Part shown: positions 31,945 through 62,639 of the stretch, piece by piece
How positions within the stretch are numbered: position 1 is the stretch's first letter
How the letters are laid out: each line of letters begins with the position of its first letter
Source: Hexactinellida sp. DTS-2022
Lineage: Eukaryota; Porifera; Hexactinellida
Reading direction: 5' to 3'
Length of the DNA: 64,000 nucleotides
Assembly: GCA_028753945.1 (NCBI GenBank)
Contig: JAPNXP010000010.1
Coordinates: forward strand, 6,017,042 to 6,081,041
The notes under the pieces: model-generated
What the model saw: the letters and a program-made list of their open reading frames with translations, nothing else
The model's database searches: none
What the model was told of the DNA's origin: nothing
Program-made: the position numbers and the translations under genes

Positions 31945-34900
31945 CTAATAGCCCAACTCATCATTAAGCTTAGTTGTCCCGTCTCCTGATTGGTTGATTG
32001 GAGGTAACCAATCAACGTAGTCGCCGCCTTCTGGAATTTCGGCTTCATTTGTTGGGTCTTTTGTGTCATTGTTGTTGTTTGTCATTAGTGCAACTAGAAG
32101 ATAAAGGTAAACAAACTTTGTGCAGAGATGTACGTACTGTAATAATTTCTTTTCTTACTTTTTCTTACATCGGTTTTCTTACAATTGTTAACTGATAAGT
32201 AATTGTAAGTAACTACTATAAGCACATGTTAGAAAGTAGATAATTGTAATACCTATGTAATATACGTATTATTTTATGGAATTACTTAGATCTCGGCCAA
32301 TGTAATTTTCAGGCACTGGCAAAGTCATTTTTGTAACATCAAAGTTTTTTGTAAAAAATAAAATAAAAAATATTGTAAAAAAAACATCAAAAAAACGGGT
32401 TTTTATATTGAAAATGTCTTGCCCGATATATATGTCAGCCCTTATTTAAAGTTCCATTAATAACTGAAACTTATACCTTTGAGATATTCAGGCAATTGAA
32501 CAGAATAAACCTTCTTGTCTTCTTTATGTGTTTTGTCAATATTCTCAATTGATGGTATTTCTGAGTTAATATTTATTGATGTTGTTGTTGTTGTTTTCTT
32601 TAAGAACTCTTGTTTACGATTCTCTGGTGCTAGTTTCAATCCATATTCATTCAATTTTGTTGTAATTTCTGTTTCACTTTCAATTTGAATTGGTTTAGTA
32701 TTTATTAATATCTGAGTTGGTTTAGCAATTGATTCTAATTTAGAAATTTGTTTTTCTTCACTTCGTAACTGACTCAGTTTAAACTTCAGTTTTGAAACAG
32801 ATTTATTAGATTTATTTGAGTTTAGTTCTTTCATAAATTCATCTAAATCCTGTGTATCTTCGTTTTCTTGTTTATTTCTACTTTCAGTTGCTTTTATTAG
32901 TAATTCCAAATCTCTTATCTCAGATTGTATAATCAGTAGTTTAGTATGTAGTGTAGAATATGTTTCTAAAGTAAACAAACAATTATTGATTTTCGTAGTA
33001 TCAAAACGGTTTTAGTCGCCTTCAAAGCCTTATTAATTCTGTCAAATGAAAACAGATTTCGACGGTCCCCTGGTGTCCGTCTAATGGAAGTTGATTTTTA
33101 TTAAGCTATTTAAAGCGCCAATTAAAAGGTCAACTAAGACACAAATAATAACATTCAATAATCATTTAGAAAGAATTATCTCTAGGATCTAAAGGAAAGT
33201 GCAAAATTCTTTGGCACTTGATTTTAACGCATAAAATGGTCTATATTGAGTCTATGAGGTATGTTTGCAATTATGTGCATTTAAGCGTTTGTTATTACCC
33301 CTTGCTATTCATTATTATTTCAGCCAATCAATATTCGGTCTAATCTGATTGGCTTACCAACATACCCTAACCTATAAATAGAGCAATTTACAGTATAGGC
33401 ATTGAGCACAAACCTACTTCTCCCGTGGTGCTGTCAGATATTGTTATAGTCTTTTTAATCCTTTTTTCCCGTTTGCACTCAATGTCTCCTGTTCTATCTA
33501 AAAAGCTATCCTCATCGCTGGAATAAAAATCGTTTTCAGCTCGAATCGCTGATTTTCTCTTTCTTGAAGAGACATATGGAGATTCTGTCAGTATTCCGCT
33601 GAGATCTAGTATTCTACACAAATGTAACATCAGTAGTTGGGCTAGTATAGCATTGTACCTCTAATTCTGGGTGCAAGGTCTCACTAAACTTATTACCGGC
33701 CGGCCAAAAATTTCATTTGTTTTCTAATCAGAGTCGATCATGGATCAACATTTGTGACACATTTGATGGTCCACCCATAGTCCACTCTCAGTGTTTCATA
33801 CAAGATTTGCATGCAAGGGGGGCATAAATTAAATTAATTAAACTTCGTTGTGTAAGTGGTTTTTCTCAAGGCATGCATTCTATGGTTGGTATAATTATAC
33901 CATAGTTTTATCAAAGCACATAAAATTGAAAGTAAATTTTTCAAGTGCGCGAAAATCGAGAGATACTCCCATATACTTAATACTAAATGAATAATTTAAG
34001 CACGTGTGACCGAACTCAACTAATCTAGGCGCAAAAAATTATGAGGATAGAAGCCTGATTACAACCTACCTACATGCCTCTAGTGCACAGGCCCAGATTG
34101 CTTCTTTCTTCTTCCCTTCGACCGTACATTCTGCAAATAGAGGATGGCCATTTCCATCCTCTAATGGAAGTTGTATTTTAACTGAGAATCCAATCCTGTT
34201 CTTTCCACCTGATGATGTTTTTAAGTTTTCAAAGGTAAACAAAAGGTAAACAAAGGAAAACAACAAAACACAAACAACATAACTTACAAGCCAATTGGTT
34301 TGAATCAAATTGCATTTCCAATCCTTCTCTCTCGAAAAAGTCTTTGAGGTATCTTTTTGGATCTTTCTTATAAAATTCATCTTTTTCTCCTTCCTGAGTT
34401 GAATTACTGGTCTCATATATGGGATCAATTCCCCAAGATACAAAATCTGAAATTTGTTCCTTTTCATTTTTCTGTTTTGTAAAATCTTCGATTTCTCGTT
34501 CGGCTTCTAACTCTACTTCTGCTTGGTAACCATCTTGCGACTCAAGAATGTATAATCTAGTGCTCTCACCAAACCGTATCAAATGGCCTGTACGTACTTT
34601 AATGTACTTGTGTGGTGGAATTTTATTTTTGTTGATTCTGCAACCATGAGTACTTCCTATAATTCATAAAATAAAATTCCACCACAACAACAACAACAAC
34701 TACATCCAATAATTTAGAGGGGTATTAACAAAGTTTTATCGAAAGTCGAACTCAAAAGGCAAATTTCCAAAATTTGGCACGTCTGAAATTAAACAAATGC
34801 TAAGTTAAGTGCTATTTAATAGAAAAAGATGAATTCACAAATATGATCAGAATTGTCTACAATTTCCAACTATTTGTGGAAATAATTTCTTTGGGAGTAA

Positions 34901-37900
34901 TATCATATTTCAGGCACTGGATTATGCGTTGCCAAACTAATTTAAGTTATAGTTTAGCTTTAATTGTTAAATGTAATTACTATTTTCAGTGGTGATATAC
35001 TCAATAGGAACAGGTTATGATCTCTTTTTGTCGAAAAGAAAATACCTCGTTGGTATAACACGGTTTAGCTCTGGTAAATAAATACATTGTTCTGATCCTT
35101 TTCAAAGCTTTTATACAGTAGATGTCGGATATAAGGACACCGGTTCTAAGAACATATCGGATATAAGAACACTATGTTGGAAAACGGTTGCCATATACCC
35201 TATATAATTTATGAAGGTTATAAGAAGTTAATAACATTCCGGTTATAAGCACATAAAGTGCAGTTCCCGACGATGTGCTTATAACCGGCATCCACTGTAC
35301 TTAGTGACACCTGTTAATTCAATGTCGGATAAAGTGAACAAATTTCGACGGTTGTTCATACTAACGAGATTCTATGATAGTTATAACCGACAATAATACA
35401 GTTAGGACTATGAGTATCCTTTGATTAATATTGCCAATAACTTGGTATTTTGGATGATATTTTATATTTAGAAAATGGCCAACACTATAAATTGAAATTC
35501 TAAGCCATTTCCATGTGTAATAATGGATGGTCTATTGATCTTTAAACTATACACAGTAAACTCCCGGTATAACGAAGTGCTTGGGAGCTGTAAATCCCTT
35601 CGTTATATTCGGATATTCGTTATAAGCAGAGCATATTAAATATTCATTTCGTTATAACGGGAGTTCACTGTATAATACAAATTCAATTAAATAACTGTAG
35701 CGAGATGTCAATGAACGAAGTTATTCCCTACTTCCCTCTCTATAATGTCGCTATTGAATTACAGAAACCAGGAACAGAAAATTATTTCGCTCATTTGAAG
35801 TCAGTATGCGAATGTGATGGTAAAGATAATCCATTTGGATTCCTGAATAAATTAATTGATAAAGTGGAAATTGACCCAGATGAAAAACCACCTAACTATG
35901 AATTCTTAATTGAAAAAGTTAAATTTTCATCTAAACCTAACACGCCACTTTTGTATCAAAACAAAGGAGCAATAATTCTGAATATGTTAGGCTGCGTAAC
36001 AGCAATACCCAAACTAGTGACACAACATGCACCTAATTTTGGTTCCAATTTAAAAGTTGTTAGTTCTGATCCCAACATGGAAAGGGATGGTATGGTAGCA
36101 AAAAAACTCGAATGCTCTGTTTTAATCGTAAAATTCGACATTGACCATCTTTGTGGGATGGCATGGCCAAGTTTTTTATACAAAGATTTTCGAAAAAACA
36201 CAGAAAAAATATGTCTCGAGCCACTACCTGAAATTGATACAAGCAAAATAACAACAATTGAAGAATGCAACGATTTATTAAAGTCAATGCTACTAAGAGC
36301 AAATTGTGACACTATTATCATCGTGATATTGGGATTCTCTGCTAATAATAAAAAAGAATCAATGGAGAGTAACTTCGTATTGCCATCACCAAGTCATAAG
36401 GTTGCAAACTTAGTATACAGTCTCAAGAACTTGTACAGCTTAATTGACACAGACGAAAAGTTATCCAAGAAAAAGAAAATCATTGTTTTACTAACTCTAC
36501 CCTCAAAACAATTGAGGTATGAGAAAAAGGATGAATTATTAGCGGAGGAAGAAGCAATACACCCATATTACCTTCCAGTAAATTCCATTCTTTTGACATC
36601 ATCTGTTGCTCAATTTAATAAATTTAGAACGAAAGTTGTCAATAACCTGGCACCGTTCTATAAGAGATTATTGGGTAACTTAAAGATAGTTAAATCGGAA
36701 GAACACCTTGTAAGGTTTTACGATACATTATTGAAATCCACAGAAATACGTTACTTTAACAACAAACTTGACAAGAAACTTATTTTAACGCCGATGAAAG
36801 AAGAGAAATTTCAAAAAGGTATTTTCTGTCTCATTAGTATCAATAAGTCTTCAGAAAAGCATCAGAAGGATTACGATTTCTTAATTGGTGAAGTACAGGA
36901 ACACATAGTAAAAAATAGGAATTGGGTATTTAACGAAGGTACAACAACTGAGCTAAGCGATAGTGGCAATGATTATTCCGATGAGATTCGAGATTTTGTC
37001 ACCGGTCTCGAAAAATACATAAAAAAAGAACCTAAAAGAGATTGTATCATAGTAATGATAATCTGCTATAACGAATGGAAAAGCAAACAGGAATCTATTG
37101 AGGTATATTCTAATATTTTCAGAGCATTATCCGAACAAATCGAATACGAATATAAAAGTCTACCAACTGTATGTATCATACACGACTCTTTATGGTGCGA
37201 GTTAAAGGTAGGAAATATAACTGTTACTGCATCGGAATTCCATTATAGGAAAGAGGACACAAAACCTTTCGAGAAGATTGTAGCGGAATATCCTAATATG
37301 TACTTTGTGTTACCATATCCAGATTACGGGGTCGATTTATTTAACCAACTACAAGAACCACACTCAAGAAGCCTGAGAGACCTAAACACTGTGAGTCTCA
37401 AAAAGAAACAAGTGAACGCAAATACAAAACTATTTTCGGAGGTAATTTATAAATCAGAAGATTTCATATTTCCAGCTATGAAATCTCCAAGGGTTGATAC
37501 TTAAACTAACTCATAATTGTGTGTATTTACTCCCATAACCAGTTAGTTACATATTTAGACTCCTATTCGGTACTGATAATAGAGATTGAACTCTCCATTA
37601 GTAACTAGATAGCTAGCACTGTATTAATCAATTCGTTGTGTGTGTAATATTGTATATTTCGGGGTTGAATGTAAATGTGTAGGATATATCGGTCAACCTT
37701 TCAATGAAAAATATCGCCTAAAGGTAAATTTTTGATGTTACAAAATATGTCCTACTAGTAGTGCCTGAAAAAAAAAATCAAAATTTCCCAATTTTTAAAA
37801 ATATAGTAGATGCTCTTTAAAAGGGCACCAGGGGACCGTCGAAATCTGTTCGTTTTATCCGAAGTCACTTGCATGCATTTGTATAGGCTAGGGGAATTAA

Positions 37901-40900
37901 ACCTTGTACTCCTTAACCGATATTTCCAGGTATTCATCCAGGCAAAATTTATGTGCGCCTAGATTAAGTTTGAGCTCGCTCACACGCGCCTATAATACTC
38001 AATTTGCATTACGATATTGGAGCATCTCTCGATTTTACGCGCCTAGAAAAGTTTCCTTTCAAAATCACTCGCGCCTAGGTGAGTTGCGCACGCCTGTTTG
38101 AAACCCTGGATATTTCGCCTTATCAGTGTTCCTATTAACGAGTCTACTGTAGTTTGTACATAACTGAGTTAGAGAATTAGAGAATGGCCACAAGGGATGG
38201 TGGGTTTGATTCTGGTGAGATAAAAAGGTTATCTACTCTATCGCAAGAAATAGAACACGTTTTTAATCTCCTCCGGAAAATGTTAGATGAAAAGAAGAAG
38301 GAATTATTAGGCGTAGTTTCAGAAATGAGGAACTTATATCAAAAGCAAAGCGCGTTGAATCAAAATATTAATCAAATGGAGTCCGTGATTAAAAATATGT
38401 ATGTTACACTATCTGAGAAGTTAATTAGTGAAAAAAATGATCAAGGCTTGAAATGGTGGGAAATTAGGATAAGTGAAATGAGGAATGAAATCAATAAACT
38501 AGGATCTGTTTGCGAATTGAAGTTAGTTCATAGTATTGAAACTTTTGTTGATTGTATTGAGAATATTCAGTTAACTACATCGGGAGCAATTAATTCGGTG
38601 ACAGATGGAATTGAGTCAGAAAATTTATGTGGAACTGTTGTATTCGCGAAAATGGACAAGGTTTTGAGGCCTGGAATTATGGTATTGCCTGACCAAAACA
38701 TGCTTTACAAAAAATTTTGGGAAAAAACTGCTAGTTTGTTTATTGAGCCTATTCTTGAAATGGATACCTCAGGTATCGATACAGTAGAAGACTTTAATAG
38801 TAGGATGCTACAAGTTCCTAGAAAAACAAAATCAGAAAATATTTTTATTGTTATTTATGGATTCTCTGCTTGTAACAAAGAGGACATATATTTGGGAAAC
38901 TTTATTTTACCCTCTAAATTTAAAAATGTCGCAAATGAAGTTTATAGTTTGAAAAATCTTTTCGCGTTAGTCGATTCTAACGAATTTGCTCATAAAAAGA
39001 AATTCATCGTTTTATTACCAATCCCATCGAAAGAGGACAAATTTGAAGATGATGGTTTTATTTATAATGAAGAAAAACATAAATACTATTTACCAGAAAA
39101 TACTGTTGTTTTGGAATGTTCAGATGTCGATCATACAGTAGCTAACATGAAAAGCGAAGAGCTAAAATTGTTTTACCAAGCTTTGATGAAAGGAACAACA
39201 TGGGATTGCCAAAAGAGACTTTCCAAAGCCATTTTAATGGATAACCTTAATAAAGCGACTGTGGCCTTTCATGCAAAAATTGGAACAGGTCTTTTCTGTC
39301 TAATAGGTATAGATAAGTTTTCAGAATGGTCAGAGTCAGATTTTTTTCAATATGAAATACAGGATCATATTGTTAAAGCTAGGAATTGGGTATTTGGCGA
39401 AGATACAACACTGCAGTTAGAAAACAGCAGAGATGAATATCCATCATTAATTGAAGACTTTGTGAGAGGTCTGAAAAAATACATTACGAAACATCATATA
39501 GAATCTATCATAGTACTAATAGTCCGTCATGAGAATTGGGAAAGCAAACAGGAATCTATTGAGGTATATTCTAGTATTTTCAGAGCATTATCCGAACAAG
39601 TCAAGTACGAATATAACCTACCAACTGTATGTACCATACATGACTATTTATGGCGGAGGGAAAAAATAGACAATATACTTGTCACATTCGATTTCTATTA
39701 TACAGAAGAGGACACAAAACCTTTTGAGGAGATTGTAGCGAAATATCCTAACATGTACTTTGTGTTACCATATCCAGGCTATGGAATAGATTTAATTAAT
39801 GAACTTAACGAGCCACATTCAAGAAGCCTGAGATCTAAATACGATGAGTCTCAAAAATAAAGAAAGGACGACACAGCAAAGACACTTTTCGAAGGTAATT
39901 TGTAACTCAGAAGAAATGGATTTCATATTTCCAGCTCCGAAAAATTACACCTAAACATCTCATCGTTTGTATTTAGGAATTATCTCCTAAACCTGTGTTA
40001 AATATTTATTCAGTATTTACCTTTGAGTTGAACTCTCCAATGGCTAGATAGCGTGATAAGTTATATAATCACTGTATTGACTTTCTTTTTGAGTGATTAT
40101 TGTGGTGTGTGTATTATTTATTTATTTATTAGTAGCAGGGAATCAAAGGTTCACGAACGAACGTACAACGAACTGAATAATGAAAAATTACAAATATTAA
40201 TCCATAAAATATAAATTTTTGTATAGCATCTTATGGGGTACCGCAAGACGTTCCAAAATTACAATGGGGACCAAATGTCATTTTTCCAAAAAGTTTGGGC
40301 AAACTGTTCAAAAGTATAATTCCTTTCCTTTCACCAACTAAAAGCGAACTGAACAAACACTGGTGGATTTGAAGTTAGGAGGTGAACGTGAACAAACTTA
40401 CAGATGAACTGAATTTGAGTTTATTCAGTTCTTCGTGAACCTTTTACCTTTCTCTGATAGCAGCTAGTTTGTTATATTAAATTATAATGAATGCCGGTTA
40501 TAAGAAGATCGTCGGGAACTGCATATAATGTTCTTAGAACCGGTATAAATTATATAGGGTATATGGCAACCGTTTTCCAGTAGAATGTTCTTATAACCGG
40601 CATCTACTGTATTAGGAACCAAAACTTACATACTTACCTAAACTTCTTTAAACTTACCAAAAGTCCAAAACTTACTTAGCTAAACTTACTTACCAAATTT
40701 ACTTACCAAAACTTACCTAAGTCATATAGATAGAATCCTTCCTCTAATTCCTTATCCTCATGATAAGGTTTGTATTGCAATACTGCATGTTGCCTCGATA
40801 TAGTAACGTGATCCATACGTACATCACAAATGTCTGTTCTACCAAACAATGTCATTGAGCGTCCGTGAAGGTCTATACTAAACGAAAAATAAAGTAACCA

Positions 40901-43900
40901 CCTTCAAAGAATGAATAACTCCAAAATATGAATACTTTTCCTCAATCGCAAAATATCCTCATTACTTTAGACACACGTTATGATAAATCATGAAAGTGAA
41001 CATCTCTAAAAAGTGAACACTTTGGCTGGTCCCCAGGGTGTTCACTTTCTGAAGGTTTTACTGTAATGAATTTCAATCAGTGTATACAATGACTTATGTT
41101 TTTTAACATCAAAAATTCACCTTTGCAAAGCCAAGTTTTGACATTAAAAAGGTGTTGGCCGATATATAAGAAACCCTTTTAAATTATATAAGTCAATCTT
41201 ACTCCTAAATATACTAATGGGTAAGATAAGTTGTTATATCCTAAATGTAATAAAATGATCGAAAAACTGTACTAGCATTGTTCTTGAGTGATTGAAAAAA
41301 AATTGGGTTAAATTTGTAATAATAAATTATTGTCCAAAGTTTTTGTCCTCAAAGCATAGTTCCTATAATAAAGATTCACGTATATTATTTGTCCACATAA
41401 ACAAACATTAATATATAGTGTATAAAAACAATTAAACTGTTTAGAAGGATTATTAATTTAATAGGAAGATCTAGCACCTTGAAAGTTGTAATGTCAGTAA
41501 GAAAATTATTGCAAGAGTAATGATTAAGAATAAATATCGAATTACAAAATAGGCAATGAAATATAGTAGAAAAATAAAACCATAAACTGTATAATCAAAT
41601 AATATATTTTAAAATCGGTACCAAGAAATGAATCGAGTTAAAGATCATTTAGAAAGTTTGGTTAAATGGATGCGAATAGGGGATATTGAAAAATTTAAAT
41701 CAGGACTATCAGATATTTCCTTGGAAGAGTTATCATCACCACTTAGGGATGGAAATGGTGGAAGTATACTGCATTTAGCGGCAGAAATGGGTTGTTTAGA
41801 AGTAATGTTTGTGTTGATACAACATGGTGTTTGTTCATCTGTTGAGGATACACATAAGGCAACGCCTTTGGAGATTGGAATTCGAGGGAAATTCAAGGAA
41901 ATTAAAATCATTTATATCATCATTGGTTAGTTTGGTTTGGAATTATGTACCGTTTTTCCATGAAAAACTCTGGACCAGTATTTAGAAAATTTTAATATCA
42001 AAAAGGATATGGAAATGTGTATTGGAAAAATTTTGTGTGCCAAATAGGGGTAATTTTTCACATATGTTTTCAGTGGAATACTGTTCATAATTTGGGAAAA
42101 CGGTAAACAATAATAGAAAAATCTTGTTTGTTTGTGTTTATACAAACTTTTGTTTAGATTTATGGAAATCAGTTTTGGAACAAGACTTGACTCTTTTAAA
42201 AAGGGTAAGTTAATTGGTCAATATAATATATCTCGTTAGTACGGACACCAGGGGACCGTAAAATGTGTTCGCCTTATCCGAAATTGTATTAACTGGTGTC
42301 ATTGTATTCAAAATGATTTGAAGGGGACTGAAATAGTGTTCGTATTGACTAACCGAAATTCGTATTAACCGTGTTCATACTAACGAGGTTCTACTGTATT
42401 AAAACCGAAAAGTATACCTTAATAGCGAGGTGACCAAAAGCAACTGAATTTAGAATAAAAACAAGGTTGTAAATTTTTGGTTTAAAATAATATCTATTTT
42501 TAGAATTTGGAGATCCTTAACGACACACTTGAGTTGGAGGAATGTAAGAAAAAGAGTGTTGAAATATTCACAAATACTCAATTGGATACACTTTTGTTAG
42601 AATCCTCTAGAGCTGGTCATATAAAGGTAATGGAAATTCTAATTCAGTACAAAATACGGAATTTTGAATTTGTAATCAATTCATTGCCAGTTGAATCGAA
42701 CTTTAGTATTTCATTTATTCGTCTTTGCAAATCAATTTCAGATGGAGAGACCAAACTAACAAGTTTATTTTTAGAAGGAAACCCAGATAAAACTGAATCT
42801 GAAAATGAAAAAATAATTCCTGAAATGAAACTTATACAACCTTTATTACAAGATGAATATTTTAAACTTAGCGTGTTATTTTTGTTAGCAGTTGAAAATA
42901 AGAATATTGTATCTGCATGCGAGATTTTTCTAAAATCAAAGAATTTTCTACTCAATAATGCTAGAAATTTGAATTTTTCTGGTTGTCTTTTGCCCGAAAT
43001 ACAAACTTTTTTTAACCTGCTACCTATCGACATAGATTTGATTGTAGAAGTTAATTTGAATTTCAATCGATTAACAACTCTCGACAGTTCATTATGTGAA
43101 CTTCCAAATTTAACAAAATTGAGTGTTTCACATAACAAGCTCTGGTTAATTTCAAGCGATATTCTACAAATGAAAAATCTTGTTCATCTAGATTTATCCT
43201 ATAATGTTATTTCAGAGTTACCAGCTATTTTTATCAGCAAAAAAATAAAATATTTATACTTACAGGGTAACCAATTCCGACATTTTCCATCTTGCCTTGA
43301 AAATTCATATTTAATCGATTTGAATTTAAGTAAGAACAGATTAGTGGATTTATCATCATCAATTTCAACAGTAAAATACCTCATGAAGTTAGATTTGAGC
43401 AACAATCCTTATTTATTACAACTTCCAACAAGTTTAGGTAAACTCCAAGTTGCATTAAATCTTGAAGGCACACAATCCCTAATGAACGTTCCAAGCTCAA
43501 TAGGAACCGATATTTGGGCTTTCTATAACCAAAGACTTGTTTCGGAAATAACTTATGAATTTTCTCAAATAATTTTGGTCGATGCCTGCAACGAAATTGA
43601 GTTTTTCAATGCAGCAAGAACAAATCTTGAAAACGAATTTGTAAGTTTACCTTTCATTAATTTGACAACTTATGGTGTTCCATTTGGGTTCCAACATGTG
43701 CATGAAATTCTAGCTAAACACTCAAATGTATATCTAATTATTTGGCAAATCGATGAAATTGATTTAAACGTGGTTCAAGAAATTTCAAATTATTTGGAAT
43801 TATTCGATTCCAATTCTCCAATACATATCGGTATTATATTCTCCAAATGTACAGAGGTCGATATTTGTGTGTTAAAGCAAGAACTTAAACTTGCCGAGGA

Positions 43901-46900
43901 TATAAAACTTCATATTCTTAATTACGAAGCAGGAAATAATCCAATATTTCATACGGGACCTATAAGGGATGAATTGATCCTTGATGCCCACTTGGTAAAG
44001 AAGATTTATAAAGTACCAGGTTGTTATATCGAAATTCAAGACACAGTCAAAAATTTGCGGGAGAATTATAAAAAAGAACATGAGCCTACTATTAGCAAAT
44101 CAGACTTTTGGGAAAAGATAAGAAGTTCATTGGATAACAGCGATTTATTCGGTGTACTTGAATTAGGCGCTATTATAGAATTCCTTGAAAACACAGGCTA
44201 CATTTCATATTTCCCTTCGAATAACCATGGATGCGAAGATATGATATTCCTCGATCCTGAATGGATAGTTGGCCTTGTTGAGCATATTATTGGACGTTCA
44301 ACTCATAGTTCCCTGTATTTAAATTCATACACAATCACACAGTTAGGGTTAGAAGAACTTTTCATCCGATATTCAAAATCACATCCACCCGCTGGTTTAT
44401 ACTATTTTCTCGCACAAAACGCAATTGCAATGCCACTCGAAGAAAATTCATGGTTTGTTCCTAGCGTTTTAACATCAGAGTTTTTGCCGGAAATTCCAAA
44501 TGCAAATTACACATTTTTTGCAATGGATTATCAACCTTGGAGTTTATGGGTTAGATTTATAGCTCACATTATCAACAGTTTACCTGCAATTGTGGCCCAT
44601 TATAATTGCCAAAAGGAATCAACACCAGAAGACATTGCTTTAACTCGATACAGAATTACAAAATGGGGAATATTATTACAAAAAAGCCAAAATTTTATTT
44701 TTCGTGTTATCAAGAAAAGAAACAATATTTTGGCTACAAATGGAATCGAATTATCTGTCCCTAAATCAGATAATGGATATCAAGTTATGAGACTAATTTA
44801 CTCCTATTTATACTCCCTCACAAAACATTGGTATCCGAAATTACTACCTGAATCTATTGCATATATTTACTGCCCGATTTGTATTGAAAATAATCTAAAA
44901 TCGGTCCACTGTTATTGTTGGATTTCTGCCATTTGTGAATTATTAGAGGATGTATCCTTAACTTGTCCAAATCACTCAGCGAAAATTCATATTTCAGAGC
45001 TTTTACCGTCGTTTTATCCAGAAGATATTTCGGGGGACATCACCACACAAAGTTCTAACTTTTCCCAAATACGACAATGTTCTAGTTTAGGCCTTGGAGT
45101 AGGGACTTTTAGAGATATGGATGTTTTATTCAAGGAATTTCCAAATATTACAGAGGGTACAATGAACAAAAAGAATTATTGGATTCAATTGCATAGCGCT
45201 TGGGCTGAAATTGAGATTTATTATGAATTGAGAAATTTGGAAACTCCATTTTTACACAAATTAATCGTTTTTTCAACAAAACCACTCATTTGCGCCATGG
45301 AATCTGGTCCAAGTTGTAGTTTAGAAAATCTAATTTTTGTCCGAAAAGTAGAGTTAAACTACAATTTCAAAGTTCGTATTTTAACACAAGTTTGTGAGGG
45401 ATTATATTTCCTTCATAAATCTAAAATAATGCATCGAAATATTTCAACTGAGTCTGTTTTAGTTTGCTCGCTATCTTACGAAACCGAAGTAAACGTTAAA
45501 CTTGGAAATTTCGATAACGCAGCATCAACAATGTTCATCGGATATCTTAAACAGAAAAAAGGCGAATACCCATCACCTGAAATGTTATCAAAAGACGGTA
45601 CAATGGAATACGAAGAAAGAACTGACATATTTTCATTTGCGTTCCTAATTTACGAAGTTTGTACTGGACTAAAAGCATTCGAATTCCAAAGAGAAAATAT
45701 AGAAGAACTTATAAATTACGGTTTTCGTCCAAATTGTCCTAACATGAACCAACTTGCTTTTGGGGTAATAAATTTAATGGAAAACTGTTGGAAAAAAACT
45801 CCATCAAAAAGGCCTTTTGCTGAAGATGCATTAAAACACTTGCAAGTTTCACTCACAGGCATTCTACAGGCACAACAAGAACTAAAAAAAATAGATGTGT
45901 TTTATCTCGCTGATATAACACAGGATTTTGATAGAAATCTAGTTATAGCACACGGTAATCAAGGTATCAAGCTTGATTTATTTAATCCGATGACGTTAAA
46001 TAGAATAACAACAACATTGATTCCATCACAGTTTATTGTCGCACTTGTTTGTGCTAGAAATTTCATATTTCTAAGTACAATCGAAAATAGTATTTTGGTA
46101 CTCTCCTCAAATACACTTGATATTCTTCATACGAAAGAATTGGATTCTGTTGTTATTTGTATTGAGATTGTAGGGGATATATTCCTAGCAGGTGATGAAA
46201 ATGGAAAGGTGACAATATTCGAAATGAATATAAATACCGGAAATATATCCCTGACTTACCAAATTGAAGCGAACTCAAATCCTATAAAAACAATCCTATT
46301 CAGTAAAGGGAAAGTATATTTAACAAGCAAGGAACATATTCATATTTTCTCGATCGATTTGATGGAAATGAAACATTATTTAACAAACAAAAATGTCAGG
46401 ACAAGTTTGAAAGAAATACAAGGTTTAAGAATAACACATTCAAACGATTGTTTACATTTCTACTATCGAAGAGAAATGGTTTTACACACTTGGGATGCAA
46501 TCAAAATGCAACCATTAACTCAAGATAATTTGACACCTCACGTTGTAGGTGATAGACAAAGACAAAAACATTACATAATGTCAATCGAGTCATGTGATCC
46601 ATGGTTATTCCTAGGCTTAAGTACAGGTTATGTTTATATATACTCTACTGTTGAACGAAAAACACAACTTTTAAACGTATTTCATGTACACAGCTCAAGT
46701 TTAAGATCCCTACAAATTCTGAATATTCAATGGCCACCTTCTACTATGCTATTCACACTAGGTGAAGGTTTTACAAATCTCCCAATGGCTAAAAGAACTG
46801 GACGAACACTAACTATTGTCAAAGAATCAATGTATAGATGTGTACTTGATATTTTCCCTGTTTTACCAAGAGATAGTGAAATTGAAGCGAACACATTTCA

Positions 46901-47456
46901 ACGATTATCAGTACAATTTCCGCCTCTAAAAGAATACCAGGATAGTAATGAATCCGATTATTATGAACCAATGAAGCCTAGTCGATCTAAACTACTGAAA
47001 TCTTTCGATTTAATGAATAGCATGAGTATTGATTTGGATCCATCTGATTTTCTTGACACACCAATAACTTATGGACAGTCTTCATCAACCTCTAATAGTA
47101 CACTAAGTTTTGATACGACTGGTAGTAGTAATATATCTGATAACTAATAACTGTATTGTTGTATTGTATATTTATTTATATTGTTGTTGTTGTTGTTTGT
47201 ATACTAACCTGCTTATTTCTTGGCCATCTTTGATAACTGTTAGTTTTAAAAATGATGAAGGTTTTCCCGTCCAATCAGGTTCTGTGTATTTTATACTTGA
47301 GGGTAGAGTAGGTTTTGATTGGTCGATTAATTCTGTTTCTGGCTGTGAAGTATCTTCAGTTAAAGTTGTTGAAATGTTTGTTTGTTTTTCTTCGTTTTCT
47401 TGAGGTTCTGTTGTAGTTGTTGTTGTTTTTGTTGATTTGGGAGTTTTGAATTCCAT
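31945..47456 (-). CDS. SLC4A1AP: Kanadaptin (SLC4A1AP), seven exons, host of three nested genes
   Basis: Model (minus): 47456-47209, 40877-40717, 34656-34288, 34208-34070, 33613-33414, 32965-32477, 32093-31945; phases agree at every junction, 584 residues. Exon 1 has the KYTEPDW motif that precedes the FHA domain. The FHA domain spans exons 1-3: FGRTDICDVRMDHVTISRQH, YLYDLG-STHG, GHLIRFGESTRLYIL. Then FYKKDPKRYLKDFFEREG, the dsRNA-binding-like KKKEAIWACALEACR, DFYSSDEDSFLDRTG, LDEFMKEL with a coiled coil, and the diagnostic C-terminus DWLPPINQSGDGTTKLNDELGY (in part). Kanadaptin is a nuclear FHA protein associated with splicing factors. Introns 1 (6.3 kb) and 2 (6.1 kb) contain three plus-strand genes. 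The exon 5 donor (GAAGTAG|GTTTGT) was chosen by phase and homology over GAA|GTAGGT. Confidence 0.92.
32300..32432. mobile_element. Family F MITE, decayed, in the last kanadaptin intron
   Basis: CTCGGCCAATGTAATTTTCA, GCACTGGCAAAGTCATTTTT and TTTTTATATTGAAAATGTCTTGCCCGAT (in part) match both halves of family F. Confidence 0.5.
33905..34057. mobile_element. Family G hAT-like MITE, decayed
   Basis: TTGAAAGTAAATTTTTCAAG, TCGAGAGATACTCCCATA, GCACGTGTGACCGAACTCAA and GATAGAAGCCTGAT follow the family G order. It ends 13 bases from the kanadaptin exon 4 donor. A small family A fragment (GACGGTCCCCTGGTG) sits at 33060 in the previous intron. Confidence 0.5.
35116..35297. mobile_element. Tigger-like MITE, family D
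   Basis: TA-flanked; ends CAGTAGATGTCGGATATAAG and TTATAACCGGCATCCACTG; the interior repeats TTGCCATATACCCTATATAA. In kanadaptin intron 2. Confidence 0.75.
35554..35670. mobile_element. Family B MITE directly upstream of a nested gene
   Basis: CAGTAAACTCCCGGTATAAC to GTTATAACGGGAGTTCACTG, 117 bp, ending 34 bases before the ATG at 35705, so it must lie in the promoter or leader. Confidence 0.75.
35705..37504 (+). CDS. Unrecognised two-domain protein, possibly DED plus pseudo-caspase-like; nested in kanadaptin
   Basis: Single exon, 599 residues, soluble, Lys/Glu-rich. I do not recognise a named family. The first ~75 residues are helical and have a DED-like pattern (LYNVAIELQK…YFAHLKSVCE…FLNKLIDK…YEFLIEKVKF). 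Residues ~200-275 (TIIIVILGFSA…VANLVYSLKNLYSLID…KKKKIIVLLTLP) and ~375-540 (GIFCLISINKS…CIIVMIICYNEW…ESIEVYSNIFRALSEQ…PTVCIIHDSLW…YPNMYFVLPYP) each resemble a caspase p20-like β-α layout, but the His-Gly and Gln-Ala-Cys catalytic motifs are absent. The catalytically dead protease idea is inference only. Paralogue of 38184-39860; both lie in intron 2 of kanadaptin, antisense to it. Confidence 0.8.
   Translation: MSMNEVIPYFPLYNVAIELQKPGTENYFAHLKSVCECDGKDNPFGFLNKLIDKVEIDPDEKPPNYEFLIEKVKFSSKPNTPLLYQNKGAIILNMLGCVTAIPKLVTQHAPNFGSNLKVVSSDPNMERDGMVAKKLECSVLIVKFDIDHLCGMAWPSFLYKDFRKNTEKICLEPLPEIDTSKITTIEECNDLLKSMLLRANCDTIIIVILGFSANNKKESMESNFVLPSPSHKVANLVYSLKNLYSLIDTDEKLSKKKKIIVLLTLPSKQLRYEKKDELLAEEEAIHPYYLPVNSILLTSSVAQFNKFRTKVVNNLAPFYKRLLGNLKIVKSEEHLVRFYDTLLKSTEIRYFNNKLDKKLILTPMKEEKFQKGIFCLISINKSSEKHQKDYDFLIGEVQEHIVKNRNWVFNEGTTTELSDSGNDYSDEIRDFVTGLEKYIKKEPKRDCIIVMIICYNEWKSKQESIEVYSNIFRALSEQIEYEYKSLPTVCIIHDSLWCELKVGNITVTASEFHYRKEDTKPFEKIVAEYPNMYFVLPYPDYGVDLFNQLQEPHSRSLRDLNTVSLKKKQVNANTKLFSEVIYKSEDFIFPAMKSPRVDT
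37804..38150. mobile_element. Family A MITE interrupted by a hAT-like family G MITE
   Basis: The outer element runs from AGTAGATGCTCTTTAAAAGG to TATTAACGAGTCTACTG. Inside, 37927-38109 starts CAGGTATTCATCCAGGC and ends TTTGAAACCCTG. It is flanked by a perfect 8-bp duplication GATATTTC (37919-37926 and 38110-38117) that interrupts the family A sequence. The composite ends 33 bases before the ATG at 38184. Confidence 0.88.
38184..39860 (+). CDS. Paralogue of the 35705 gene with a coiled-coil N-terminus; C-terminus frameshifted
   Basis: Single exon, 558 residues. The first ~150 residues form a coiled coil (IEHVFNLLRKMLDEKKKELL…NQNINQMESVIKNM) reminiscent of TRIM-type coiled coils and unlike the start of the sister gene. 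From ~residue 220 the two align: NIFIVIYGFSA / TIIIVILGFSA, VANEVYSLKNLFALVD, KKKFIVLL.IPSK, HKYYLPENTV, GLFCLIGIDK, ARNWVF, ESIEVYSSIFRALSEQ, YPNMYFVLPYPGYG, PHSRSLR. After SLR a 2-base difference shifts the frame and stops it at 39860, although DNA similar to the sister's last ~35 codons continues to about 39955. Function unknown; see the sister entry for the tentative caspase-like reading. Confidence 0.8.
   Translation: MATRDGGFDSGEIKRLSTLSQEIEHVFNLLRKMLDEKKKELLGVVSEMRNLYQKQSALNQNINQMESVIKNMYVTLSEKLISEKNDQGLKWWEIRISEMRNEINKLGSVCELKLVHSIETFVDCIENIQLTTSGAINSVTDGIESENLCGTVVFAKMDKVLRPGIMVLPDQNMLYKKFWEKTASLFIEPILEMDTSGIDTVEDFNSRMLQVPRKTKSENIFIVIYGFSACNKEDIYLGNFILPSKFKNVANEVYSLKNLFALVDSNEFAHKKKFIVLLPIPSKEDKFEDDGFIYNEEKHKYYLPENTVVLECSDVDHTVANMKSEELKLFYQALMKGTTWDCQKRLSKAILMDNLNKATVAFHAKIGTGLFCLIGIDKFSEWSESDFFQYEIQDHIVKARNWVFGEDTTLQLENSRDEYPSLIEDFVRGLKKYITKHHIESIIVLIVRHENWESKQESIEVYSSIFRALSEQVKYEYNLPTVCTIHDYLWRREKIDNILVTFDFYYTEEDTKPFEEIVAKYPNMYFVLPYPGYGIDLINELNEPHSRSLRSKYDESQK
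39861..40486. other. Gap after the second nested gene
   Basis: Begins with the out-of-frame remnant of the paralogue's C-terminus (to about 39955). The rest contains no ORF; AACTGAA/GAACTGAAT-like short motifs recur around 40150-40440 without a clear unit. Confidence 0.45.
40487..40609. mobile_element. Family D MITE
   Basis: ATGCCGGTTATAAGAAGATC to TTATAACCGGCATCTACTG, close to the exon 2 donor of kanadaptin. Confidence 0.7.
40619..40716 (-). repeat. Array of splice-donor-like GGTAAGT repeats after kanadaptin exon 2
   Basis: On the minus strand the intron begins GTAAGTTTTGGTAAGTAAAT and goes on with further GTAAGT copies (about eight, some overlapping) over ~100 bp, spaced by TTTTG/TTTAG/AAATTTG. 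The first copy is the donor required by reading phase. Confidence 0.75.
40890..41063. mobile_element. Family E MITE
   Basis: ACCTTCAAAGAATGAATAAC, ACACACGTTATGATAAATCA and CTGAAGGTTTTACTG correspond to the copy at 21747-21931. Lies 13 bases before the acceptor of kanadaptin exon 2. Confidence 0.65.
41095..41173. mobile_element. Half of a family F MITE
   Basis: CATCAAAAATTCACCTTTGC to AAAAGGTGTTGGCCGATATA; the left half is missing. Nothing else recognised before 41628. Confidence 0.55.
41628..47147 (+). CDS. LRRK/Roco-like protein with degenerate GTPase and kinase (nested in kanadaptin intron 1)
   Basis: Exons 41628-41925, 42158-42204, 42504-47147; phases agree, 1662 residues. Order: ankyrin-like repeat (ILHLAAEMGCLEVMFVLIQHG), leucine-rich repeats ~270-455 (NLNFNRLTTLDSSLCELPNL, HLDLSYNVISELP), Roc-like ~465-600, COR ~625-905 (DMIFLDPEWIVGLVEHIIG), kinase-like ~985-1210, WD40-like β-propeller ~1220-1560, Ser-rich tail. 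The Roc P-loop GxxxxGK[ST] is replaced by VDACNEIEFFNA. In the kinase lobe HRD reads HRN (N1094) and DFG reads NFD (1117-1119), while APE survives as SPE. It is thus probably a scaffold that binds but does not hydrolyse or transfer. Architecture matches LRRK proteins, which act on endolysosomal membranes and microtubules; a specific role here is unknown. Confidence 0.87.
42229..42396. mobile_element. Family A MITE in intron 2 of the LRRK-like gene
   Basis: TATCTCGTTAGTACGGACAC to ATACTAACGAGGTTCTACTG, with the CAGGGGACCGTAAAATGTGT interior. Confidence 0.7.
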
Positions 47457-47819
47457 TTGTCTAATTCTAAATTCAAGTTGCTAAATGTAAACAAACGTAT
47501 ATATTTAAAATTTCACAAAACTATAATAAAATAAAGTAAATTTGTGCGCGAATTTTAGGAGGTCCAAAAATGGTTTTATCCAATGGTAGAATAAGCCAAC
47601 TTTGTGCTTTGTATTTTAGAACATATTTTAGTTTGAAAACTTTCTTAATAATTTAATATAAAATGACCCTTATCGATGTATAAATAAAATAAAATAAAAC
47701 ATACACAAATCAATAACGAATAATATAGTAAATATCAATATTTATTTGTAAACAAGATATATATATATAACAATTGCTGACGAGTTATAAAATCAATCAT
47801 TCAAGAAATAATCTAGTTT
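47457..47819. other. Spacer between EHD 3' end and kanadaptin start
   Basis: 363 bases separate the kanadaptin ATG from the EHD stop, both on the minus strand. It must hold the kanadaptin promoter and the EHD 3' UTR. AT-rich; no element recognised. Confidence 0.5.
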
Positions 47820-56393
<8,574 letters not shown>

Positions 56394-56897: not shown

Positions 56898-59800
56898 TTA
56901 ATATAGAGGTAATCCATATATAATAGGGGCGGCACCAGTTATAAATCTAAGTTTACAAGACAAACGTGCTTGTTTGAAGGCCAAATACAAAGTATTTCTC
57001 ATCTCAATTCCTTGAGAAAATAATAAATCATCTTTCTTAACTATTTCTTGAATTAATTTCATTGTAAACAGATTTATTTCAGAATCAGTAACAAACCATA
57101 ATGTACCTATTATAGTAGGAAAACCAGCGAGCAATAACATTAATAACATATTGGGATATTCAAATGGACCTTCAATTGATAATCTACCGGTTGAACAACC
57201 CATTAATAATGTAAATGCTTTGCCTTTTGTGTTCAATAACTTTTCTTTGTTAATATATTCACTACCAGAGCCATGGCCACAGTATACATACAAATCATGT
57301 TTCGAAACAGAATCGATTAAACCCTTAGGAGGTGTTCCGGATACACCATCCCAATTGAGACTATTAAAGTATTTCTGGAAATCATTTTCACACCTTAATA
57401 GGTCACCTTGTGGATTTAAAACGTAGAATCCGTTTGTTATATCGAGATTGCAATTTGTGTTATATTTATGCGTTAGTTTGTATAAGAAATGGAGTGAAGG
57501 TACACGTGATACACTCTGGGTTGATAAAATTGGGAGATTTTCCCAGGGAATTCGATGCAAATTTGGGTCTAAAATAAGAAAAATGTGTCCACGTGAAACT
57601 GAAAGAGGTGTACACTCAAATTTATCTAAAATATCAGCGAATTTTTCATATAATTCTTCTGATTTTAGTGCAAGTTTTTTAATGATTTTTTGTAGTTTAT
57701 TTTGCTCTAAATTTGGTAGAATTTGTATAATAATTTGTTCGATTTGCATTGTTTTTAGCATCGGAACTGATTCTAAAATTAGGCCTAATAACTCCAAGTA
57801 ATATTCACGTTGATTGGACGGGATTTCAACTAAATCTGAGATAAACTCGAAAAGCTCATTGGTTGATTCCTTTAGGATTTCTGGTTTCAGATTATTTCTG
57901 CCTAAAAATAGGCCTTTCCATTCTGAGAACCAATCAGATTCGATTTGGCTTAGAGTCTCGGAAAGTGCAGTGTTTGCTTTCGTTCTAGAATTCCACCATC
58001 TGGATTTGTTTATAATATTTTCAGGTTTATTCGATTCGTGGAGTAAATCGAATATATTTGTTAGAATTTCTTCAAGTGATGTTAATTCAGGTTGTTTTTG
58101 ACGGGTGTTTTTGATGTCAAATTTGGGAGCAATTAATTTTAGAACTGGGATTTTTAAAAGTAGAGGTGTACAAGAGTTACGTAACCTTGATATGTATAAT
58201 CTGTCACCTTTTTGGGGCCATGAAATAGTAAGAATTGTCCAGTCATTTTGCAAATTTGATAGTGAAGATATGAAATTGGTTTCTATCGAATTTTCAGGGT
58301 TGTGAGTCAATGAATCGAAACAGAAAAGGTCAAAAAATTCAGTTTTTGAGTTTGAATTTTTTGTTGATTTATTTAGGAATAAATGACGCAGGCTAATACC
58401 AAACGAAGCATTGAAATAAGCGGTAGATAAAGTAGGATTTGAATCTGAAAATAATTTACCTAGACTCAATAGAGAAAATTTGAGCGCCAAAACAGAACCA
58501 TAAGGAATAGTAGACTCAAGACATTTTGTATAAATTTCTTGTAAATCGGTTTTTATCGCAGAATTCTCAGATTTTGCGTTTGAAAGACAACATTTTGAGT
58601 TTTCACAAGTTTCATTCAAATCTTGACTCAAACATTTTCCCGCTTGTAAATAGAATTCTGAGAGACATTGGCAGAAATGTGGTTGTTTCATAAAAATATT
58701 TCCATTTGACTGCATTCCGTTAATTAGCTTAGTTGCGGTTCTATAAATAGAATTAGCAGTTTTGATATTATCTGAATCTCGAATTTGGTTGGTGAATAGT
58801 TGTATTTGAGAAATTTTGGTATTTATAAAATGGTCGTTTGGTGGGAAAGGTGCTATTTGTAGAAACGGAATTGAATCCTCATTAGTGCCGAGTTTATGGA
58901 AATATTGGTGTAAATTTGTTAAAATTTCTTGAATTTTTTCATGAAAATTCTTGAAATCAGGTTTGGTTAAAAAGTGAGGGTTTTGTTCGATCTTTTCTTG
59001 GGAAGTCAATTTCAGAATTTCGTTAAAATTTTGTAAAATAAGATCATTTGAAATGACAGGATATTTTTTGTTTGTGCAGCAAAAATCTTTGAATTCAGAG
59101 CGATTCACTTTCAACTTTTTCAATTTCAAAAGGTGCGAAAATCCAACAAATACTTCACTTGAAAACACACAATTGTTTTCAATTATAAAATTTCTCGTTG
59201 ATGTTAGAAATCCAAAATATTCATTGATTCTTTCAGATTTCTCACGAATGATATCAAGTTGAATACCAAGGGTCAAAAACTGAATTTTCCATTCGAATAA
59301 ATTTAATTTTCCAGAAATTTGATATCCAAGGTCGATATATGATGTTGCTTCTTGTGTTTTTCCTGACTGAATTAAAATTTGTGAAATTTTGAAAATTCTA
59401 TGAAGAAAAGAAGGAATTATCAAAAACGGAATTCTTTTATCTGAAACATGTTTTCTCTCTGGTTCTGTTTCAGTTAAAATATTTGCCGCAAATCTACGAA
59501 AGGTGTTACAAACTGAAATCAACTGTGAGTGCGTGTAAATAAGAATTTGATTGGTGGAGAACTCGGTCGAACTTTTCAAAGCAAAATATTCAAATTCAGA
59601 TTCAATTAGAGTTTTGAGAGAATTTGATTTTGTAAAGAAATCATTTATGAAACTATTTTTATTACAATCAATAGATCCATTGAGGAACAAAGAAAATATT
59701 TGATTTTTATAATATTTCAAAATATCTTCACTATTCTTTGCATCAAAGACTTTGTGTTTGTCACTAAATAATTCATAAATTCGTTGTAGAGAAGAGAAGG

Positions 59801-62189
59801 TATTTTGATAACCATTTTCAATCAAAAATTCAGAAAATTCGTTCAAAATTTGAGTTGCAAAATCAAAATTATTCTCACAAAATTCTGACAAATAAATTGA
59901 AGAACAAATAAATGTCAAAAATAGGTAGAATTGATTGGAAAATAAGTTGAAAATAAAAAGCAAAGTTTTGAGTACAAATTCCAATTCTTTCACAAATGAA
60001 TTAGAAATTTCCCGCTTAAAATATCTCAAAAGAATATAAATATATTCCATAGCAACGAGAAATCCCTCTGGAATATTTGGAATTTGAACTGAATCAGAAT
60101 CAGCGCCTATTTGTGGATAATTTGGTTCCAATTGTAGCCTATTATAATTCGCAATCTGATAGGTCAATAAAGCAAACCAGAAATTAGAAAGAGTATAAGT
60201 CTGTATAGATTCTAAAGAAATTTTTGTGACAAATATTCGTCGAATATTTTTCAAAATTTCGGTGATAAGTTTCAAAGCCAAATCCCATTCTTCACGATCG
60301 TATAAATAGGAAATCTTTAAAAGTGGACCGACTGGATCTGAAAAAAGTGAATTTTCAAATGTTTCATTTTCATTTGAATATCTATTTAGAACCAAGTCAA
60401 GTAAAATTGGATTTACAGGTGTTGATAATTTGAGTAGGATTTGTATTTCTCTATCAATAATATTATCTTGCTGTTTTATATTTGGATTATAATTGGAAGC
60501 TAAAATCTGAAAAAACGTTACATCAAAGTACTGGTAATGTATAAATAAAATTTTGATCCAATTTCCTAAAAGTCTTGAATTTCTCTCATTTGTTGACAAA
60601 TAAAATTCCATTGAAAAAGAAGCAATTATAACTTTTATCCTTTCACTGAAATTATGTATCATTTCACTAGAAATATTCAATAGAATACTCGTCAAAAGTT
60701 CTAATAGAAACAGAACTTCAGAAGTAGATTCAAATTTGGTTGGTGACATAATCAATGGTGTCATTTCAATTGATTTTATAAGGAATTCCAATGCACCATC
60801 CTGGTCGTCATGTTTATTAGCTAGAATTGCGATATGATGAATCCGAACGAGCGAAGCTGTAACATAAACATCAAAGGGTTGAGTTTTGAATTTCACTTCT
60901 GTCAAATGAACTTTTGTAAGAATTTCATAGAAACTAAAAAATGCCAAATTCCAACCATGGATGTCTTCTTTTGAGCAAAATTCAATCTTTGAGAAATGCT
61001 GTGACGCACTACGCATAATATTCAGTGGAACTAAAATAAAAAACTCAATTTCGTCAGGAAATATCTTACAAATTTCTTCATACTTTCGGATAAATTCTTT
61101 TCCGAAAATGTGAATAATCCGTAAAACACATTTATAACACAAAAATATATCCTTTTTCGTTTGTTTTTCAATAAAACTTCCAATTTCCTTCAATATAATA
61201 GGGACTATCTGTAAAAACATTGGATTATGATCACTCGAATCTTTGCCCGAAACTGAATTCAGTAAAGTGTGAAGTTTTCCTAACATTCCAGCAGGAAATT
61301 CCGATTCTTTTGAAGTATATATTTTTATGAGAGAAAGAGCAATGCCTATAGTTAGAAAAGACGGGAGATTTTCGAAATTAGAGGATAGTTCATGTAAGAA
61401 ATATTTGAGAATAGTTATTCCAGAAATTGGAGCTTCTTTTGATCCAAATGCGATAGTTATAAGAACAATTATAAGTGAGAAAAAATTATTTTCAGATTGA
61501 ATTAGAGATTTTATATTTTCTGAATTGAATTGTGTTATTTTCAACCATCGAAGCGATTGGGTCACCAAAATAGAGCATATCTTGTCCGATTCTTGAACAG
61601 AAATATTTGGTTCTAAATGAGATTTATAAAGAGTGTTCATATGAAGTACAAAATATCTAAAATTAGAACATTTAGGCGGAAAAATGAAAAAATTGAGCGC
61701 GCGAATACGTGCTTCCACTAATTTGATTGGACAAATATCCAATTTCTTTATGTATGCCCATAGAAATGTGAAAATATGCTCACATAGAGTAAATATAGAG
61801 TCAGATATATGAATAACTGATTTGATATGAAATTCTATAAATTTGTGAATTTGTTTGATTGATGCTAAGAATAGTTCGATTGAGGAAGAATCGATTTTGT
61901 GCGAGCGAGAAAGTGAATGTAGGATTGAAACAAAACACTTTTCAATATCTGATGTTGAAAATTTCACGTTTTTTTCTTGAATTTGTGAAATAAATTCAAT
62001 AATATAGTAAAACATTTTCATTATTTGTTTGGTGTCATTATTTGAAGGAATAATTTTGTTGAATTTGGTAAGAAGAATTACACATTCTTTTTCTGTTGCT
62101 AGGTTTTGTAATTTTAGATAAGAATTGTAACAATCTTTGTGAGTTCGTAACAAATACTCTAAATAATCATTTTGTGAATTTAGATTCAT
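56898..62189 (-). CDS. ESPL1: Separase (separin), single exon
   Basis: 1763 residues, no intron. The CD-clan cysteine protease that cleaves the cohesin kleisin at anaphase onset. The C-terminal ~300 residues hold the protease: the catalytic His is H1639 in YVYCGHGSGSEYI and the catalytic Cys is C1665 in LLMGCSTGRLS, followed by LLAGFPTIIGTLWFVTDSEI, the conserved post-catalytic helix. Upstream are the pseudo-protease-like portion (GDRLYISRLRN, WW) and a long, fast-evolving α-helical repeat region as expected for separase. The N-terminus has no similarity I can name. Animal separases range from ~1200 to ~2100 residues, so length is normal. Regulation by securin and Cdk1 is assumed from the family; no securin is seen here. 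Confidence 0.95.
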   Translation of the reverse strand: MNLNSQNDYLEYLLRTHKDCYNSYLKLQNLATEKECVILLTKFNKIIPSNNDTKQIMKMFYYIIEFISQIQEKNVKFSTSDIEKCFVSILHSLSRSHKIDSSSIELFLASIKQIHKFIEFHIKSVIHISDSIFTLCEHIFTFLWAYIKKLDICPIKLVEARIRALNFFIFPPKCSNFRYFVLHMNTLYKSHLEPNISVQESDKICSILVTQSLRWLKITQFNSENIKSLIQSENNFFSLIIVLITIAFGSKEAPISGITILKYFLHELSSNFENLPSFLTIGIALSLIKIYTSKESEFPAGMLGKLHTLLNSVSGKDSSDHNPMFLQIVPIILKEIGSFIEKQTKKDIFLCYKCVLRIIHIFGKEFIRKYEEICKIFPDEIEFFILVPLNIMRSASQHFSKIEFCSKEDIHGWNLAFFSFYEILTKVHLTEVKFKTQPFDVYVTASLVRIHHIAILANKHDDQDGALEFLIKSIEMTPLIMSPTKFESTSEVLFLLELLTSILLNISSEMIHNFSERIKVIIASFSMEFYLSTNERNSRLLGNWIKILFIHYQYFDVTFFQILASNYNPNIKQQDNIIDREIQILLKLSTPVNPILLDLVLNRYSNENETFENSLFSDPVGPLLKISYLYDREEWDLALKLITEILKNIRRIFVTKISLESIQTYTLSNFWFALLTYQIANYNRLQLEPNYPQIGADSDSVQIPNIPEGFLVAMEYIYILLRYFKREISNSFVKELEFVLKTLLFIFNLFSNQFYLFLTFICSSIYLSEFCENNFDFATQILNEFSEFLIENGYQNTFSSLQRIYELFSDKHKVFDAKNSEDILKYYKNQIFSLFLNGSIDCNKNSFINDFFTKSNSLKTLIESEFEYFALKSSTEFSTNQILIYTHSQLISVCNTFRRFAANILTETEPERKHVSDKRIPFLIIPSFLHRIFKISQILIQSGKTQEATSYIDLGYQISGKLNLFEWKIQFLTLGIQLDIIREKSERINEYFGFLTSTRNFIIENNCVFSSEVFVGFSHLLKLKKLKVNRSEFKDFCCTNKKYPVISNDLILQNFNEILKLTSQEKIEQNPHFLTKPDFKNFHEKIQEILTNLHQYFHKLGTNEDSIPFLQIAPFPPNDHFINTKISQIQLFTNQIRDSDNIKTANSIYRTATKLINGMQSNGNIFMKQPHFCQCLSEFYLQAGKCLSQDLNETCENSKCCLSNAKSENSAIKTDLQEIYTKCLESTIPYGSVLALKFSLLSLGKLFSDSNPTLSTAYFNASFGISLRHLFLNKSTKNSNSKTEFFDLFCFDSLTHNPENSIETNFISSLSNLQNDWTILTISWPQKGDRLYISRLRNSCTPLLLKIPVLKLIAPKFDIKNTRQKQPELTSLEEILTNIFDLLHESNKPENIINKSRWWNSRTKANTALSETLSQIESDWFSEWKGLFLGRNNLKPEILKESTNELFEFISDLVEIPSNQREYYLELLGLILESVPMLKTMQIEQIIIQILPNLEQNKLQKIIKKLALKSEELYEKFADILDKFECTPLSVSRGHIFLILDPNLHRIPWENLPILSTQSVSRVPSLHFLYKLTHKYNTNCNLDITNGFYVLNPQGDLLRCENDFQKYFNSLNWDGVSGTPPKGLIDSVSKHDLYVYCGHGSGSEYINKEKLLNTKGKAFTLLMGCSTGRLSIEGPFEYPNMLLMLLLAGFPTIIGTLWFVTDSEINLFTMKLIQEIVKKDDLLFSQGIEMRNTLYLAFKQARLSCKLRFITGAAPIIYGLPLY

Positions 62190-62639
62190 AATAAGAGCTA
62201 AGTGAAGAATTAGTAAATGAAAAATTTCAGGAAATTAGGACATTTAGAAAAGCCTCAAAATTATACCCTCCTCAACTAATTTTTAATTTTTGGAGGTAGA
62301 AAATATTTTTTGAGCACAGATAATCTAAAAATTGAGCCATGGTCCAGTCAAATTGATTTTTGAATAGTCTTTATTTATATGAACTGAAAATTAATATAGG
62401 TAATGAGGGTTGTAGTTTTATATGTACAACATTTTTTTACAATTCTTAGTTCTTGTAAAAATTTAAAATTTACCAGTAACTGAGTATATTCTCGAGAATT
62501 TGGATAAATCTAAAAATAAATCAATGACTAAGTTGCTCCAAATCAAATGAAAATCCAATTTATTGAATACATATTTACACTATGGATAATAATTTTATTG
62601 AATATGCTTTTGTTTTTTGGATGGACTATGAATGGCTGA
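62190..62639. other. Separase upstream region
   Basis: AT-rich spacer between divergent separase and the gene at 62979; no TATA box placed convincingly and no ORF. Confidence 0.4.

Follow-up and report, generated by a model that had tools for sequence, protein, structure and literature searches.

Results

Kanadaptin gene and its FHA domain

The window analyzed here, a stretch of 64,000 nucleotides from contig JAPNXP010000010.1 of Hexactinellida sp. DTS-2022, is AT-rich eukaryotic DNA whose GC content varies between 28 and 40% in 2-kb steps; it contains no Ns and carries several long single-exon open reading frames (ORFs). On its minus strand lies a kanadaptin gene with its ATG at 47456. Exon 1 (47209-47456, 248 nt) ends in AG, followed by gttagt; exon 2 (40717-40877, 161 nt) opens with T after ttttcgtttag and closes with G before gtaagt; and exon 3 (34288-34656, its 3' end taken from the gene model) opens with GA after attatag. 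The exons join in phase (AG/T between exons 1 and 2, G/GA between exons 2 and 3), and the two long introns between them, intron 1 (40878-47208, 6331 bp) and intron 2 (34657-40716, 6060 bp), have GT-AG ends. The remainder of the gene comes from a model of seven exons and about 584-588 amino acids that ends with a stop at 31945, and in which exon 3 is followed by exon 4 (34070-34208), exon 5 (33414-33613), exon 6 (32465-32965) and the last exon (31945-32093), all on the minus strand. Exons 4 to 7 are less certain than exons 1 to 3, because 216 splice-site combinations were open in the searched stretch and the one retained was the best by a simple donor/acceptor score; the donor of exon 6 in particular is ambiguous, the alternative at 32477 looking better by eye than the scored one at 32465. 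The C-terminal regions encoded here presumably resemble those of the human protein.

The identity of the gene rests on its first three exons. Among all solved structures, the best match of their joined product is the FHA domain of human kanadaptin (4h87, E 2.3e-31), the second-best, plant DDL (3vpy, E 3.3e-18), being much weaker, and exon 2 by itself carries a Pfam FHA match (4e-08). The alignment to 4h87 covers query residues 56-175, with the start of the domain in exon 1, and runs without a gap over the two junctions, at residues 83 and 137. Judged by this homology, a kanadaptin-type FHA domain is present, and the location of two introns within one domain, together with their matching phases, makes a pattern beyond chance. 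The original prediction was exact to the base for the first two exons, for the points where exon 3 begins and the gene ends, and for the splice phases, and its claim that the FHA domain reads continuously across both junctions is borne out by the ungapped alignment to the human domain.

Genes within the kanadaptin introns

Intron 1 harbors an LRRK1-like gene and intron 2 two intact paralogues, hereafter p1 and p2, all three on the plus strand. By their coordinates the nested coding sequences, as modelled, lie wholly within the kanadaptin introns, and the host exons around them belong by homology to one protein, given the FHA alignment over both junctions; the 3' UTR of the LRRK-like gene, though, may reach past the intron (see Discussion). 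From ATG to stop, with its own introns, the LRRK-like gene takes up 87% of intron 1, and the coding sequences of p1 and p2 together take up 57% of intron 2. The arrangement, as read from the DNA, is gene nesting, known and ordinary in kind; homology, open frames and phases agree with the antisense nesting and with the identities first assigned to kanadaptin, the LRRK-like gene and the two paralogues. Sense and antisense transcription would cross the same DNA if all of these genes are expressed, and a coupling of the expression of kanadaptin with that of its nested genes is possible. In the open-access literature searched we found no published work on kanadaptin together with nested genes.

The LRRK-like gene (41628-47147, plus strand) is represented by a three-exon model of 1662 amino acids with no stop inside, chosen by the appearance of its acceptors among six open models, four of which were tied on donor score. 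Exon 1 (41628-41925) is ankyrin-like, with Pfam matches below the cut-off, exon 2 (42158-42204) is supplied by the model, and exon 3 (42504-47147) encodes leucine-rich repeats (LRR), the expected Roc region, which is unmatched, COR-A, a pseudokinase and a weak WD40-like match. The main ORF, of 1547 codons, has Pfam matches to LRR (LRR_4, 1.1e-09), to COR-A (1.4e-07, with 32.0 bits falling below the cut-off of 35.3) and to a kinase, and the closest solved relative of the protein is LRRK1 (E 1.2e-41), in an alignment that includes the COR region. As to the Roc GTPase, residues 326-502 have no PDB match at E up to 10, and a motif scan of the 1547-residue ORF finds no P-loop of the form GxxxxGK[ST]. 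The kinase part (45081-45863, plus strand) reads RNISTES and NFD where LRRK1 has CDLKSDN and DYG, which are the catalytic residues (HRD, DFG) of the latter enzyme. The LRR, COR and kinase-fold regions thus stand in an order common to this protein and LRRK1/Roco (PDB 8e04), from which it nevertheless differs by having neither a GTPase match nor a P-loop and by the replacement of the catalytic residues of the kinase. The sequence suggests a shell of a Roco kinase that seems to be devoid of both enzyme activities, albeit probably a functional pseudoenzyme and not a decayed remnant, since the ORF has stayed open for 1547 codons. A search of the open-access literature for the evolution of the Roco/LRRK kinase domain in sponges found none.

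The paralogues p1 (35705-37504, 599 aa) and p2 (38184-39860, 558 aa) are single-exon genes on the plus strand whose products are 43% identical overall. Over 396 aligned codons dN is 0.40 against a dS of 0.99, and identity at codon positions 1, 2 and 3 amounts to 0.63, 0.75 and 0.55; because third positions differ most and second positions least, and dN falls below dS, both genes are, as far as such codon comparisons indicate, under some (moderate) constraint at the protein level. With E up to 0.1 in Pfam, p1 has no family match in either Pfam or NCBIfam, p2 gives two weak and unrelated Pfam matches and otherwise weak models of the coiled-coil type, and neither has a sequence match to Peptidase C14. 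A profile of the two proteins finds three weak matches among solved structures (best E 0.0074), all to the helical N-terminal part, a region that is also helical in the low-confidence model of p2. Relatives were sought in virus and prokaryote collections, a choice that says little on conservation among animals, and none was confirmed either in viral contigs (416 pattern matches) or in genome contigs (212 pattern matches).

AlphaFold models built from the two-sequence alignment have a mean pLDDT of 41.3 (p1) and 48.8 (p2), too low to be trusted, and Foldseek returns mixed folds with low TM-scores for both. Chains of caspase-1, -3 and -4 make up 7 of the best 50 matches of the p1 model (the highest-placed at rank 22, with E no better than 2.2e-3 and TMt in the range 0.28-0.38), and no caspase occurs among the best 50 of the p2 model, both being models with a mean pLDDT under 50. 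The idea that each protein contains two dead caspase domains has too little support to be put forward, the domain-to-domain hhalign probability being 0.6%. At 39814-39945 (plus strand) homology to the C-terminal part of p1 (residues 553-594, 50% identity) runs beyond the stop of p2 in another frame, and the C-terminal end of p2 therefore appears to be shifted or shortened.

The neighboring EHD gene

The gene just upstream of kanadaptin, on the same strand, encodes an EHD protein. Its last intron (48024-53289, minus strand, 5266 bp, GT-AG, phase 0) splits a single EH domain, and the joined C-terminal protein matches EHD2 (E 3e-44) over residues 1-216 of 217. Three of the six pieces of this gene were matched in Pfam (EHD_N, DUF5600 and EH); the remaining three we take to belong to it as well. 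Antisense within the last intron lies an intact PRP4 kinase gene (PRPF4B; 50163-52520, plus strand), a single ORF of 785 codons in which residues 437-785 align with the human PRP4 kinase structure 4ian at E 2.9e-171.

When kanadaptin and EHD, the two genes covered by the count, are taken together, 3 of the 11 introns or ORF gaps (six kanadaptin introns and five EHD gaps) exceed 1 kb, and all three hold plus-strand antisense genes. Lengths of 79-557 bp were obtained for the remaining eight, with the proviso that the four short EHD gaps were taken between stop-to-stop ORF ends and that the true introns are somewhat longer. The arrangement had initially been put forward as something special to kanadaptin, a view that did not survive this comparison: since the layout recurs in EHD right beside it, antisense nesting is at least regional and not a kanadaptin peculiarity. 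Farther along the window, a separase-like gene (56901-62234, minus strand) consists of a single ORF of 1778 codons (Peptidase C50, E 1.1e-74).

Discussion

We consider it likely, with a probability of roughly 80%, that the locus is a case of ordinary gene nesting in a genome that is compact and animal-like. Minus-strand transcription of kanadaptin would then span about 15 kb, from which two introns of roughly 6 kb would be removed by ordinary splicing, and those introns would house plus-strand transcription units of their own, the LRRK-like gene in the first and p1 with p2 in the second. Independent sets of transcripts that share DNA would be the simplest working model, on the supposition that host and nested genes are all expressed. 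The two long kanadaptin introns would owe their length to the genes inside them, and would persist because neither could be lost without its nested genes; expression, if coupled at all, would be so as a side effect and not through a dedicated switch.

Precedents for such an arrangement abound. The glass sponge Aphrocallistes vastus is reported to have 2432 nested genes (12.4%), compared with a typical 5-10% elsewhere and almost none in several genomes, the last partly owing to annotation methods; its single-exon transcripts number 12,409, set beside a total of 19,578 genes (PMC10282587). Our window bears a likeness of style to that genome; the main text of PMC10282587 does not name kanadaptin. 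In humans about 63% of nested genes lie on the opposite strand (PMC3192792, citing Yu et al.), and in Drosophila 2mit is nested in timeless2 (PMC3786989). As in A. vastus and in the 2mit/timeless2 pair, whole genes lie here in host introns, as nested animal genes often do in single-exon form and on the opposite strand; the present locus differs in that three of them occupy two successive introns of one host, beside a second host of the same sort. For sense-antisense pairs in Giardia it has been proposed that the overlap preserves a handful of introns (PMC6545626), and here too introns coinciding with opposite-strand genes may be retained on their account. Those few introns belong to a protist, however, whereas the introns described above are long and contain whole genes. 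As a discovery, the locus adds one more example and no new kind. Two adjacent hosts with four antisense genes in three long introns nonetheless make a clean and compact case, which could be used to ask whether nested genes protect introns from loss.

Other readings must be weighed against ordinary nesting. An error of assembly or annotation, by which exons 1 and 2 would come from another copy of the gene or the plus-strand genes would have been misplaced into kanadaptin, might be entertained on the grounds that everything rests on a single sequence and assembly, but it appears highly improbable: exons 1 to 3 each match once in the window by tblastn, the sequence is free of Ns, the GT-AG ends and phases agree at two separate junctions within one FHA domain, and the layout is repeated in the neighboring EHD gene. 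We are doubtful, though less firmly so, of a regulated nest, in which antisense transcription of the LRRK-like gene and of p1/p2 would repress or time kanadaptin, either by collision of polymerases or through a 3' UTR of the LRRK-like gene lying over exon 1. All three nested genes are indeed antisense, and interference has been described in some human host/nested pairs (PMC3192792). A scan confined to AATAAA and ATTAAA motifs moreover finds neither in the interval from the stop of the LRRK-like gene (47147) to the boundary of intron 1 (47208), the next one on the same strand being at 47525, past exon 1. Because this is the first such signal after the stop, the 3' UTR may run antisense over kanadaptin exon 1, in which case the LRRK-like gene would not be cleanly intronic. 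As for the other nested genes, p1 is followed by ATTAAA at 37896, and an AATAAA at 39856 overlaps the stop of p2.

It is also conceivable, if on balance unlikely, that exon 1 is not the first exon of kanadaptin. The acceptor-like sequence ttgtttacatttag at 47481-47494 (minus strand), 24 bases before the ATG, could mark an intron in the 5' UTR or a site for trans-splicing of a spliced leader, possibly with co-transcription from EHD, which ends some 360 bp upstream with its stop codon; spliced leaders were present in about 4% of long reads in a glass sponge (PMC10282587). Against this, the motif is short and sits in AT-rich DNA, and EHD comes with its own AATAAA, at 47746.

The kanadaptin strand shows no shortage of AATAAA: intron 1 has 11 where 10.0 would be expected, and intron 2 has 12 where 6.8 would be expected. 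There is therefore no sign of introns tuned for sense read-through. At the mouth of intron 2, in turn, stands a cluster of eight donor-like GTAAGT motifs (40624-40716, minus strand), the first of which is the donor of exon 2. These eight lie within 93 bases and account for 8 of the 23 on that strand in the whole 64 kb, and among 200 random sequences generated from the strand by a first-order model no cluster was larger than 3, a figure to be read in the knowledge that the real cluster was noticed post hoc. The cluster sits in a tandem repeat, which is itself a simple explanation. Of the seven donors farther downstream, six would, if used, cut the protein off at 140 residues and the remaining one at 150.

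U1 is known to mask early polyadenylation, a process termed telescripting (PMC5499120), and the cluster could help to load U1 and to mask early polyadenylation, or it could be a neutral repeat. A wider conjecture, to which we assign little credence, is that the interleaving is maintained, nested genes locking introns into an otherwise short-intron genome while the host compensates by devices at the RNA level. The kanadaptin device would be the eight-donor cluster at the mouth of a 6-kb intron, loading U1 against early polyadenylation at the 12 AATAAA motifs. If this were true, its price would be truncated kanadaptin isoforms whenever a downstream donor was used. The locus also lends itself to asking whether strong donor clusters aid the splicing of long, antisense-filled introns. 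The two long kanadaptin introns also contain short repeats, at 35580-35700, 40400-40600 and 42230-42410, with ends like CAGTAGA..GTTATAA and in some cases inverted, which resemble the terminal repeats of small DNA transposons, perhaps those of pogo-like elements.
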